Source: Vasconcelosia minhoensis LEGE 07310
GTDB taxonomy: Bacteria; Cyanobacteriota; Cyanobacteriia; Phormidesmidales; Phormidesmidaceae
Length of the DNA: 56,634 bases
NCBI RefSeq assembly: GCF_015207255.1
Contig: NZ_JADEXG010000031.1
Span: 1 to 56,634 of the forward strand
Reading direction: 5' to 3'
Shown: positions 50,496 to 56,634 of the stretch, piece after piece
Layout of the letters: the number at the start of each line of letters is the position of its first letter
Position numbering within the stretch: position 1 is the stretch's first letter
Program-made: the position numbers and the translations under genes
The notes under the pieces: model-generated
Databases searched by the model: none
Seen by the model: only the letters and a program-made list of their open reading frames with translations
What the model was told of the DNA's origin: nothing

Positions 50496-51926
50496 ATGTC
50501 TTACTCTCAGTCATCGACTCAGTCGAGTGCTGGATACAAAGCCGGGGTACAGGATTATCGGCTGACTTACTACACGCCAGACTATACCCCCAAAGATACT
50601 GACCTGCTAGCGGCTTTCCGCATGACGCCGCAGCCCGGCGTGCCGCCGGAAGAAGCGGGTGCAGCCGTTGCGGCAGAGTCCTCGACAGGCACCTGGACCA
50701 CCGTCTGGACTGACCTGCTGACCGACCTAGACCGCTATAAGGGTCGCTGCTACGATATCGAGCCGGTTCAGGGCGAAGACAATCAGTACATCTGCTACGT
50801 CGCCTACCCCCTGGACCTGTTTGAGGAAGGCTCGGTTACTAACATGCTGACCTCGATTGTGGGTAACGTATTTGGCTTTAAAGCCCTGCGCGCCCTGCGG
50901 CTTGAGGATCTGCGGATTCCCGTTGCCTACCTCAAGACCTTCCAAGGGCCGCCCCATGGCATTCAGGTTGAGCGGGACAAAATCAACAAGTACGGTCGTC
51001 CCCTGCTCGGCTGTACGATCAAGCCTAAGCTGGGCCTGTCGGCGAAGAACTACGGTCGGGCGGTCTATGAGTGCCTGCGCGGCGGTCTGGACTTCACCAA
51101 GGATGATGAGAATATCAACTCTCAGCCCTTCCAGCGGTGGCGCGATCGCTTCCTATTCGTCGCTGACGCCATTCACAAGTCCCAGGCTGAGACCGGCGAA
51201 ATCAAGGGCCACTACCTGAACGTCACCGCCGCCACCTGCGAAGAGATGCTGAAGCGGGCCGAGTTCGCCAAAGAGCTCGAAATGCCCATCGTCATGCACG
51301 ATTTCCTGACGGCTGGCTTTACCGCCAATACCACCCTATCTAAATGGTGCCGCGACAACGGTCTGCTGCTGCACATCCACCGGGCCATGCACGCGGTAAT
51401 TGACCGGCAGAAGAACCACGGCATGCACTTCCGGGTGCTGGCCAAGTGCCTGCGGATGTCCGGCGGTGACCACATTCACACCGGTACGGTAGTCGGTAAG
51501 CTAGAGGGCGATCGCGGTGCGACCCTGGGCTTCGTAGACCTGCTGCGGGAGAACTACGTCGAGCAGGACAAGTCTCGCGGCATCTACTTCTCGCAGGACT
51601 GGGCCTCGATGGGCGGCGTCATGGCCGTGGCCTCCGGCGGTATTCACGTGTGGCACATGCCCGCGCTGGTGGAAATCTTCGGCGATGACTCCGTTCTCCA
51701 GTTCGGCGGTGGCACCCTAGGACACCCCTGGGGCAACGCACCGGGCGCAACCGCGAACCGGGTGGCGCTGGAAGCCTGCGTTCAGGCTCGGAACGAGGGC
51801 CGCAACCTGGCTCGTGAAGGTGGCGACATCATCCGTGAAGCCTGCAAGTGGTCGCCTGAGCTCCAGGCCGCCTGCGAACTCTGGAAAGAGATCAAGTTCG
51901 AGTTCGAGACGATGGATACCATCTAG
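50496..51926 (+). CDS. rbcL: RuBisCO large subunit, form IB
   Basis: Fixes CO2 onto ribulose-1,5-bisphosphate in carboxysomes. The 476-residue protein has the conserved [20 protein letters not shown] start, the catalytic KPKLG loop (Lys176, Lys178), the carbamylated Lys202 in [11 protein letters not shown], and the [17 protein letters not shown] and [17 protein letters not shown] segments. Sequence type and the adjacent rbcX identify form IB of beta-cyanobacteria. GGGAGA before the ATG at 50496. First gene of rbcL-rbcX-rbcS. Confidence 0.99.
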
Positions 51927-53090: not shown

Positions 53091-53129
53091 AAATTGTAGT
53101 AGCTGTTACTGAAATCACTACTACAATTT
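53091..53129. repeat. Inverted repeat AAATTGTAGTAG / CTACTACAATTT
   Basis: Two perfect 12-base arms separated by 15 bases, ending 13 bases before the ATG of the next small gene. Because it overlaps the probable leader or promoter of that gene, it could be an operator or an RNA hairpin near the ribosome site. Confidence 0.75.
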
Positions 53130-53142
53130 GCATTGCCAGGCC

Positions 53143-53418
53143 ATGAACAGTCCACACTCCTACCTGCCCGATTCCTATTCGCCCGGTTCCCAGCCGCTTA
53201 GTTCCAGCTCAGCCTATCGTCCCGCCCGGCTGGGGCAGGGTTTTCAAGTTCTATGGCGCGGATTTAGCCGCTTTATGGCTGACGATAGGCAGCCGCTCTA
53301 CCCCCTCAGCCAGCTCACCCATCAGCAGCTTTGCTACCTGCGGGCGCGACGGATTTATTACTTTCTGCCGCTCGATCAGCAGCGGGCCTGGTTAGAAAAA
53401 ATTTATCACCAGTCTTAG
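53143..53418 (+). CDS. Small hypothetical protein
   Basis: A 91-residue protein: a Ser/Pro/Tyr-rich N-terminus (MNSPHSYLPDSYSPGSQPLS), then a basic, aromatic C-terminal half (LGQGFQVLWRGFSRFMADDR; LRARRIYYFLPLDQQRAWLE). No recognised domain. A TTG at 53128 is in frame, but the ATG at 53143 is preferred. The perfect inverted repeat 13 bases upstream suggests regulated expression. Codon use is normal for the window. Confidence 0.6.
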   Translation: MNSPHSYLPDSYSPGSQPLSSSSAYRPARLGQGFQVLWRGFSRFMADDRQPLYPLSQLTHQQLCYLRARRIYYFLPLDQQRAWLEKIYHQS

Positions 53419-53571: not shown

Positions 53572-55008
53572 ATGAATCAAAGCCAGGTAGACGATCCGCA
53601 CACCCGGCCGTCGGGGCCGCCGCCGCCGCAGTACGAGGGCTGGCAAGCCAAAGTCGCCGACTACTTTAACTTTTCCGACTACCGGACTAATTTTCGCGCT
53701 GAGATCGTAGCCGGGCTGACCACCTTCATGACCATGGCCTACATCCTGGTCGTCCACCCGCTAATTTTGTCGGACGCGGTTTTCGTGAACGAGTCGGGTG
53801 ACCTGTTTCAGGAGCTGGTGGTGGTCACCGGCATCTCTGCCGCGATTGGCAGCCTGATTATGGGGCTCTATGCCAAATATCCCTTTGTCCAAGCTCCTGG
53901 CATGGGCACGAATGCTTTCTTTGCCTATTCGGTGGTGCTGGGTTTGGGCATCAGCTGGCAGACGGCCCTGGCGGCAGTCTTTATTGAGGGTCTGATCTTC
54001 ATTGCCCTGACCGTGACCGATGTACGGCGTCATTTGATCACGGCAGTTCCCGGCGCAATCAAGGCGGCGACGACGGTGGGGATCGGTCTGTTTTTGGCCT
54101 ATATTGGCCTGTCTGGCAATACGGAAACCGGCGGGGCCGGTCTGATTGTGGCCAGCGATGCCACGAAGACGGCCTTTGGCAGCTTTGCGGAACCAGCGAC
54201 GCTGCTGGCGGCCTTTGGGATTTTGCTGTCCTCCTTCTTTATCGTCCGTCGGATTAAGGGAGCACTGCTCTGGGGAATCGCTGGCACAGCAATCCTCGGC
54301 TGGGTTCTGGGCGTGACAGCAGCACCCACCGAAATCGCAAAAATTCCGCCCTTTCCCAGTACGCTATTCGGCGCGGCCTTTTCCGGTCTAGCGGGAATTA
54401 ACGCCGGTAATCTGATCGACTTTCTGGCGGTGCTGCTGGTATTTCTCTTTGTAGACCTATTCGACACCATTGGCACCTTGACCGGCGTGGGTACGCAGGC
54501 GGGCTATATCGATGAGAATGGAGAGCTACCCCGGGCGAATCAGGCGCTGTCAGCAGACGCGATCGCGACCACCACCGGCGCTATCCTCGGCACCTCCACC
54601 GTCACCACCTTTGCCGAATCGGCGGCGGGCATTGCCGAAGGTGGGCGCACCGGGCTGACGGCGGTTGTCGCCGCAGTGATGTTCATCATCGCGCTGCTGT
54701 TTGTGCCAATTTTTTCGGCAGTGCCAGCCTATGCCACGGCTCCAGCCCTGCTGATTGTAGGCGTGCTGATGATGTCCAGCGTCACCGGCATTCGCTGGGC
54801 CGACCTGACGGAATCGATTCCGGCCTTTGCCACGATTTTCTTCATTCCCCTGGGCTTTTCGATTGCCGAAGGGCTGGCGCTGGGGCTGATCCTCTATCCG
54901 TTCACGAAGCTGGTCAGCGGCAGAGCCAAAGAAGTGCCGGTCGTCACCTGGATTCTGGCGGTTCTGTTTATCGCCCGATTTATCTTTACCACCCTACGGT
55001 TTGGCTAG
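53572..55008 (+). CDS. NCS2-family purine permease, AzgA-like
   Basis: A 478-residue membrane transporter with about 13 helices. It shows AzgA/GhxP hallmarks: RAEIVAGLTTFMTMAYILVVHP, APGMGTNAFFAYSVV, the VFLFVDLFDTIGTLTGVGTQAG segment and TSTVTTFAESAAGIAEGGRTGLTAVV. The family imports adenine, guanine or hypoxanthine with protons. Directly downstream, ten bases after its stop, starts the remnant of a deaminase that would act on such purines, which supports a purine substrate. ATG at 53572 after a GGGGGAAT leader. Confidence 0.9.
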   Translation: MNQSQVDDPHTRPSGPPPPQYEGWQAKVADYFNFSDYRTNFRAEIVAGLTTFMTMAYILVVHPLILSDAVFVNESGDLFQELVVVTGISAAIGSLIMGLYAKYPFVQAPGMGTNAFFAYSVVLGLGISWQTALAAVFIEGLIFIALTVTDVRRHLITAVPGAIKAATTVGIGLFLAYIGLSGNTETGGAGLIVASDATKTAFGSFAEPATLLAAFGILLSSFFIVRRIKGALLWGIAGTAILGWVLGVTAAPTEIAKIPPFPSTLFGAAFSGLAGINAGNLIDFLAVLLVFLFVDLFDTIGTLTGVGTQAGYIDENGELPRANQALSADAIATTTGAILGTSTVTTFAESAAGIAEGGRTGLTAVVAAVMFIIALLFVPIFSAVPAYATAPALLIVGVLMMSSVTGIRWADLTESIPAFATIFFIPLGFSIAEGLALGLILYPFTKLVSGRAKEVPVVTWILAVLFIARFIFTTLRFG

Positions 55009-55017
55009 GTGCCCCCG

Positions 55018-55337
55018 ATGGATTCCTTCATCCGGGCGATTCCCAAAGCCGAGCTGCATATTCATGTAGAGCTTTGCCAACTCAATGGCGGAGCATAACC
55101 TCAAGCAGCTGATGGACAGGGGCCTCTGCATCACCGTCAATTCTGACGATCCGGCCTACTTTGGCGGCTGTCGCCGAGAATTTTCAGGCGGTGCAGACGG
55201 CGCTAGAGCTGAGCCAGCAGGATATTTACCGGCTGGCTAAGAACTCATTCGAAGCTACATTCCTGAATTCGAATGAAAAGCAGGCACTGATTGCCGAACT
55301 CGATCAGTTTATGGCGACTGCTGAGTCTGCACCGTAA
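55018..55337 (+). pseudogene. Adenosine/adenine deaminase remnant with internal deletion and frameshift
   Basis: The ATG at 55018 reads [18 protein letters not shown], the metal-binding HxH start of the adenosine/adenine deaminase family, then drops out of frame. From about 55075 another frame gives LCQ-less sequence [20 protein letters not shown] and [11 protein letters not shown], the conserved SDDP metal site near the C-terminus. After one more shift it ends [31 protein letters not shown] to TAA 55335-55337. About 200 residues between the two metal sites are gone, including the catalytic Glu and His. The gene is dead. It follows the purine permease by nine bases and overlaps the next gene by 29 bases. 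Confidence 0.88.
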
Positions 55338-56634
55338 TCACCTGAGGTGGGGTGGAGTCGGGGGGGTAGAGTAGGTCAACTTCAACCGTGCGGCTAGTTT
55401 GGGGAGCGATCGTCAGCGTTGCCAGCGGATCGCCTAGCTGGCCGCGTCGCTGCACCAGGTGATAATTGACAATGCGCGGCAACCCCCGGTCATCCTGATA
55501 GCGCACCTGAACCGGCCCGCGAAAGAACATCTGCTGGGCGGGCGGCGTCAGAAATCGCAGTCCTTCACCCGTTAGCAGGTCTTCCTTAATCGGCGTTTCA
55601 AGCGCTACGGTGACGGTTTGGGGCTGGTCGGTCGGATTGTAGAGCGGCAGGGTCAGGCTGTACTGAATGCCATAGTTGCCGTGGGCCTGGTAGGCGGTGT
55701 CGGGATAGCGCACCAGCAGCGGCGCGCTTTGATTTTGGTTCGTTCCCAACCTGCCGCCGGGTAGCAGGCTGATGCCGTAGGAAAAGGCTTCGCCCCCAGC
55801 CGGGATAGTCAGCCTATCCGTGACTGGACTATCGGTGAGGGTAGCCTGCCATTCTGACCCCTGGGCGACTCCAGCGACTCTACCGTAAATCAGCGGACTG
55901 GCATTGCTATCAGGCGGGGTGGGGGCGCGATCTCGCGGTCCCGCCAAACCACTGTCATCCAACAAGGTTTGCCAATCCTCTAGTGAGGGGGCTTCTTCCC
56001 CATCTGCGGTCTCCACGGCAGGGCGAGCCAGGCTGGCGAGATAGACCGGCCCACTGCTGCGCAGCCTAAGTAAAGTGGAGCGGCCATTGATCGGTGGATC
56101 TAGCGATCGCACCGGAATTGGCTGATTCAGCAACATCGCGCTTTCGCCCGGCGGAATCACCAGCTGGCCCGGTAGCTCAGCCTGGCGTTCTCCCCGCAAA
56201 ATATCTCCCATTACCCGGCTGCCCGGCCCGGCAAAAATCGGATAGAACGGGCCAAAGCTCTCCCTGTCTGGCAGCTCTATAAAGGGCGCGTCGGGCTGGC
56301 TGAGATAGCTTGCACCGGCCAGAACATCCACAGCCACAGGCTGGCTGCCGGGATTGTAAACCAAAATTCCCAGGTACAGGCTAGTTAGCTGCTCCGGCGT
56401 CTCGGCCTTGTAAACGTGGTGAGCGAATACATCAAACCGTCCGTCAAAGGGCAAATTCAGATGGGCCTCGGGGACGGCTTTGCCCTCGGGCGGAAAGGTC
56501 GAGAGCAGAATTCCCGGGGTGCCGATTAGCTCGGGACTGTTGCTGTTGAAGACGGGGATATCGTCGAGCTGGGCCGGTAGAGATCGGACGGTTTGGGGGC
56601 GGATAATTTCGACCGGTTCGGCGGTGGGTGGGGA
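55309..56634 (-). CDS. DUF3370 family protein, 5' part outside window
   Basis: The open frame runs from the stop at 55309 to the right edge without a start, so the N-terminus is missing; 441 codons are visible. The first visible part, RPQTVRSLPAQLDDIPVFNS, NSPELIGTPGILLSTFPPEG and AHLNLPFDGRFDVFAHHVYK, is typical of DUF3370, a cyanobacterial family of exported, strand-rich proteins of unknown function. Later YLGILVYNPGSQPVAVDVLAGASYL and YNPTDQPQTVTVALETPIK look like immunoglobulin-like sandwich strands. A signal peptide is expected upstream but is not seen. A surface or S-layer-associated role is guesswork. Confidence 0.85.
   Translation of the reverse strand, partial: SPPTAEPVEIIRPQTVRSLPAQLDDIPVFNSNSPELIGTPGILLSTFPPEGKAVPEAHLNLPFDGRFDVFAHHVYKAETPEQLTSLYLGILVYNPGSQPVAVDVLAGASYLSQPDAPFIELPDRESFGPFYPIFAGPGSRVMGDILRGERQAELPGQLVIPPGESAMLLNQPIPVRSLDPPINGRSTLLRLRSSGPVYLASLARPAVETADGEEAPSLEDWQTLLDDSGLAGPRDRAPTPPDSNASPLIYGRVAGVAQGSEWQATLTDSPVTDRLTIPAGGEAFSYGISLLPGGRLGTNQNQSAPLLVRYPDTAYQAHGNYGIQYSLTLPLYNPTDQPQTVTVALETPIKEDLLTGEGLRFLTPPAQQMFFRGPVQVRYQDDRGLPRIVNYHLVQRRGQLGDPLATLTIAPQTSRTVEVDLLYPPDSTPPQVITVQTQQSP

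Follow-up and report, generated by a model that had tools for sequence, protein, structure and literature searches.

An intact AzgA-like purine permease gene followed by the remnant of a probable adenine deaminase gene in the cyanobacterium Vasconcelosia minhoensis LEGE 07310

Introduction

What was the gene that lies in pieces directly behind an intact purine permease gene in Vasconcelosia minhoensis LEGE 07310, was it truly lost, and does it reveal what the permease carries? The window analyzed here (56,634 nt) is a whole contig (C118) of this organism's genome, a 5.26-Mb assembly of 161 contigs rated 100% complete, and it also carries rbcL (50496-51926), named by eye from its translation. 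An earlier note, made from the letters alone, had described an intact AzgA-type permease followed by a wrecked "adenosine/adenine deaminase", had called the loss recent, and had held that the deaminase fixes the likely substrate of the permease. We compared the locus with 59 relatives, among which the genus was represented by no other genome, with an order-level set of 63 genomes that includes its own, and, for the deaminase, with a class-level sample of 388 genomes drawn evenly from a larger group, in which matches at E <= 1e-90 were kept. A search of the open-access literature on guanine deaminase, adenine deaminase, or AzgA in cyanobacteria yielded nothing on the remnant gene.

Results and Discussion

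The permease gene (53572-55008, forward strand) is an open frame of 478 aa from an ATG at 53572 to a stop at 55008, and it is as intact as the earlier note had stated. The remnant (55018-55337, forward strand) begins 9 nt after that stop, with an ATG at 55018 whose frame runs for 26 codons before a stop, and ends with a stop at 55337. It consists of three collinear pieces, on one strand and in the same order as in intact relatives, for which the intact deaminase gene of genome G016 (L004) served as our reference. Specifically, piece 1 (55018-55071) opens at the start codon, and its 18 residues include the metal-site motif HIHVE (15/18 identical to L004); piece 2 (55085-55168), in another frame, holds 28 residues ending in [10 protein letters not shown] (21/28 identical to L004 and 25/28 to the intact gene L083); and piece 3 (55170-55337) holds the C-terminal 55 residues and the stop (34 of 51 aligned residues identical to L004). 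In tblastn, pieces 1, 2, and 3 matched intact relatives at E values of 5.6e-07, 1.8e-13, and 2.8e-19, which is far beyond chance.

What is missing lies mainly between the first two pieces. Across the scar of a large deletion (55072-55084), an offset of 67 nt in the remnant corresponds to 762 nt in L004, a net loss of 695 nt or about 232 codons (six intact genes compared), and the join to piece 3 is 2 nt short (three intact genes compared). Thus, the frame shifts and the two clear end motifs reported earlier are there, while the loss, put at about 200 residues, is real but a little larger than claimed. With 695 nt net gone between HIHVE and the SDDP piece, the window's copy lacks a complete catalytic core. 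The 695-nt loss may have been a single event or an in-frame loss of 690 nt plus a 5-nt loss; which of the two applies turns on whether the six bases that follow piece 1 are chance or the LC codons. Beyond these gap lesions, the pieces contain no extra stops or shifts (95 codons compared). Downstream, a convergent gene for a DUF3370 protein (55309-56634, reverse strand; PF11850, 548 bits), truncated at the contig end, overlaps the final 29 bases of the remnant. Elsewhere in the sample, a deaminase copy with one TAG (G030) was considered as a second case of decay and not counted, as its 338-codon frame reaches nearly to the end of the match.

We consider it highly probable that the locus is a former two-gene purine unit whose deaminase was destroyed by a large internal deletion together with small frame-changing losses, with the permease left intact. 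In such a unit, the permease would bring a nucleobase into the cell, where a cytoplasmic deaminase would convert adenine to hypoxanthine and ammonia, until the deletion and the smaller losses wrecked the second gene and spared the first. The 9-nt gap suggests that the two genes were co-transcribed. As synonymous sites are saturated, the loss cannot be dated, and the pieces are consistent with its being recent: the lack of further lesions and of excess amino acid change agrees with the earlier description of it as such. In a 36-row deaminase tree, the remnant, with 30% of the columns filled, was not firmly placed; its nearest row by path was L063 (G016), and the only supported set holding it was one of 16 rows.

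The identity of the lost enzyme can be approached through its intact relatives, which score above curated cut-offs and one of which, L004, is matched by the remnant pieces. Specifically, L004 reached 566.4 bits against NF006850 (cut-off 419) and 391 bits against TIGR01430 (cut-off 216.55), and a second gene (L002) reached 541.3 bits against NF006850, over the same cut-off. Among solved structures, L004 was closest to 3ou8, 3pan, 3pao, and 3pbm (463 bits, with an alignment over 310 residues to 3ou8), followed by 3rys (373 bits) and then 6n91 (141 bits); classical adenosine deaminases scored 141 bits and below, and the vertebrate adenosine deaminases scored less than 100 bits. We take 3ou8, 3pao, and their kin to be Pa0148. 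Pa0148-type enzymes and the intact relatives of the remnant have HxH and [11 protein letters not shown] in common; unlike those enzymes, the window's copy has no interior, has two frames shifted, and cannot make an enzyme. Pa0148 appears as an adenine deaminase in a reference title within PMC6281700, and a passage of PMC6629668 terms PA0148 adenine-deaminase-encoding. The names of NF006850 and TIGR01430 and the PDB entries' own label all read adenosine deaminase, such that it is the literature on Pa0148 that makes adenine specificity probable. On these similarities, a Pa0148-type adenine deaminase (PF00962) fits better than a classical adenosine deaminase, which sharpens the double name given earlier, and the nearest solved relatives suggest that the enzyme acted on adenine. 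The neighbors of intact copies fit this identity: hpt follows the deaminase gene in four genomes (G016, G207, G097, and G215), and the G097 copy (in L154) scores above the cut-off of TIGR01203. In G207, the deaminase also has a gene for a UraD-type decarboxylase beside it.

The permease belongs to the AzgA/AZG-like NCS2 family, as it scored 144.9 bits against PF00860 (cut-off 27) and as its sole matches among solved structures at E <= 0.01 were AZG1 (262 bits) and AZG2 (207 bits); it had no NCBIfam match. AZG1 and AZG2 are, by name, plant adenine/guanine permeases. The nearest known counterparts of the window's permease are these two, its best solved matches, together with fungal AzgA (adenine/guanine/hypoxanthine; NCS2/NAT superfamily, PF00860), from all of which it differs in being a bacterial protein of 478 aa whose substrate is only predicted. 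Named relatives that share 78-80% identity with it belong to Leptolyngbya sp. BC1307, strain CCP5, cf. Phormidesmis LEGE 11477, and Phormidesmis priestleyi, while a search of plasmids gave matches that were all below 60% identity. Upstream lies a small frame without a Pfam match (53128-53418, forward strand), whose last 20 residues resemble those of a small protein upstream of another permease (L034), with 9/20 identical. We dropped it as a conserved permease companion, since that role would rest on those nine residues.

How often do the two genes stand together? Among the 63 order genomes, 58 have the permease and 22 the deaminase (23 before a match in G005 at 32% identity and E 1.3e-53 was left out). 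All 22 hold a permease match, full or partial, with none nearby: the genes are on separate contigs in 18 and more than 600 kb apart on the same contig in 4 (G032, G064, G079, and G083). At the class level, the deaminase occurs in 34/388 genomes, 14 of them outside the family, and 7 of these 14 have the permease. An intact adjacent pair was found in 2 of the 29 genomes with both genes, although separate contigs in drafts do not strictly exclude adjacency, and in G089, the deaminase sits at a contig end. Pairing is thus not the rule. One of the two pairs is a permease-adenine deaminase-hpt run (G097; L138/L154, 5856-8998 of L154), and in the other, xanthine dehydrogenase genes are transcribed divergently from the permease and deaminase (G240; L143/L155, 1-6883 of L155). 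The window has the same gene order, strand, and short gap as both, whereas their permeases are only 56-64% identical to its own and occupy other parts of the permease tree. These are intact pairs of the kind that the earlier note had proposed to look for. In themselves, the two loci are compact purine-use loci in cyanobacteria.

The wider comparison gives no support to the earlier claim that the deaminase pins down what the permease carries. Across 69 permease loci, with flanks of 1.5 to 4 kb inspected, guanine deaminase adjoins the permease in 11 (10 genomes, as L033 and L092 are the same contig; L097 at 26% and L105 at 34%, partial, are excluded), and a Pa0148-type deaminase does so only at the window. 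In six further permease loci from deaminase-bearing genomes, guanine deaminase is again the neighbor in three (G164, G236, and G362; guanine deaminase stands beside the permease at L147-L149); the adenine deaminase of these genomes lies either about 1 Mb away or on a different contig. The genomes of the nearest permeases (78-82% identical) gave no match to the deaminase, and the flanks of L086/L108, L087, and L032-L037 held no trace of it. In a 68-row tree, the window's permease groups in a 15-row clade that has support and includes permeases linked to guanine deaminase; those of G097 and G240 branch far away (the guanine deaminase labels on this tree predate the finding at L147-L149, and counts from them, being underestimates, were left aside). 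Together, partners and tree imply that the pair formed more than once or was lost very often, and that the deaminase does not determine the permease's cargo.

Two readings of this pattern can each be put forward only tentatively. One is that cyanobacterial AzgA-like permeases of one lineage swap partners repeatedly between guanine and adenine deaminases, such that here, an adenine partner was gained and then lost, with the cargo now routed by apt and xanthine-dehydrogenase-like genes. Adjacency in two genomes whose permeases lie at distant places in the tree means that permease and deaminase do meet repeatedly, and the plant AZG permeases, named for carrying both adenine and guanine, make both partners compatible with one carrier. 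All the neighbors would be in keeping with one permease whose cargo is adenine, guanine, and hypoxanthine. The other, which we regard as possible but doubtful, is that the permease belongs to a module for guanine or oxopurine breakdown, which the deaminase adjoined by chance or in a short-lived local fusion, such that its loss says nothing about the cargo. The frequency of guanine deaminase as a neighbor, its presence in the permease's own clade, and the three genomes that keep their adenine deaminase away from the permease speak for such a module; the repeated meeting of permease and adenine deaminase and the breadth of the AZG carriers speak against it, as does the window's own genome, in which a protein search found no guanine deaminase, the best match (30%) being an 8-oxoguanine deaminase (682 bits; cut-off 532).

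Whether another gene could replace the lost one is best judged from the same genome. The earlier note had advised looking there for another deaminase, and no second copy was found: an intact deaminase as the query gave no match at E <= 1e-40, and the single PF00962 match is a 346-aa paralog between aspS and purA (1420-2460 of L001, contig C101). In this paralog, HRHLGG and CTDN stand where the usual motifs would be, and it was rejected as a replacement because it falls under every NCBIfam adenosine deaminase cut-off. A PF00962 match of some kind occurs in 53/59 relatives, and most of the 59 have one of a strength similar to that of the paralog. Likewise rejected was a type-1 adenine deaminase (TIGR01178), for which the genome gave two weak matches below the cut-off. 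On this assembly, deaminase activity is lost, unless the aspS-purA paralog supplies it. The genome keeps apt (223 bits; cut-off 185.85). A protein search found hypoxanthine phosphoribosyltransferase neither beside the remnant nor elsewhere, the sole match at E <= 0.001 being PyrR at 27%; of 12 phosphoribosyltransferase matches, three were scanned against NCBIfam and the rest read by eye. A three-gene, xanthine-dehydrogenase-like cluster with XdhC is also present (5889-10572 of L132, contig C156), the large protein of which (917 aa) has iron-sulfur and molybdenum parts joined and scores 551 bits, below the NCBIfam cut-off of 780. With apt and this cluster kept, imported purines still have routes, and the permease probably still works on purines that are now handled by Apt or by the cluster.

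Could the remnant be a fault of sequencing or assembly, with the deaminase still whole in the living organism? The contig ends 1.3 kb downstream, the assembly is in 161 pieces, and the remnant is known from assembled sequence alone; nevertheless, a net loss of 695 nt and a separate loss of 2 nt would need two unrelated faults, and in an assembly rated as complete, neither an intact copy nor an unplaced fragment turned up elsewhere, which makes this explanation very improbable. That a remaining frame, such as the 58 codons at 55161-55337, yields a functional short protein can be set aside almost entirely: the C-terminal frame does run uninterrupted to the gene's own stop, and the remnant differs from five intact genes by 0.16-0.215 amino acid changes per site, with 0.17-0.24 among the intact genes themselves over the same 95 codons, but such low change is equally expected from recent loss, the lost interior contained most of the active site, and the frame's only start is a TTG inside piece 2, with no partner frame.

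Conclusions

The deaminase remnant is an ordinary, lineage-specific pseudogene and a genuine gene loss. It offers a clear case, in a filamentous cyanobacterial lineage, of a purine-salvage enzyme lost behind an intact transporter. For this cyanobacterial family, the comparison would correct the automatic annotation "adenosine deaminase" to adenine deaminase, and it cautions against inferring the substrate of a transporter from a single adjacent gene.
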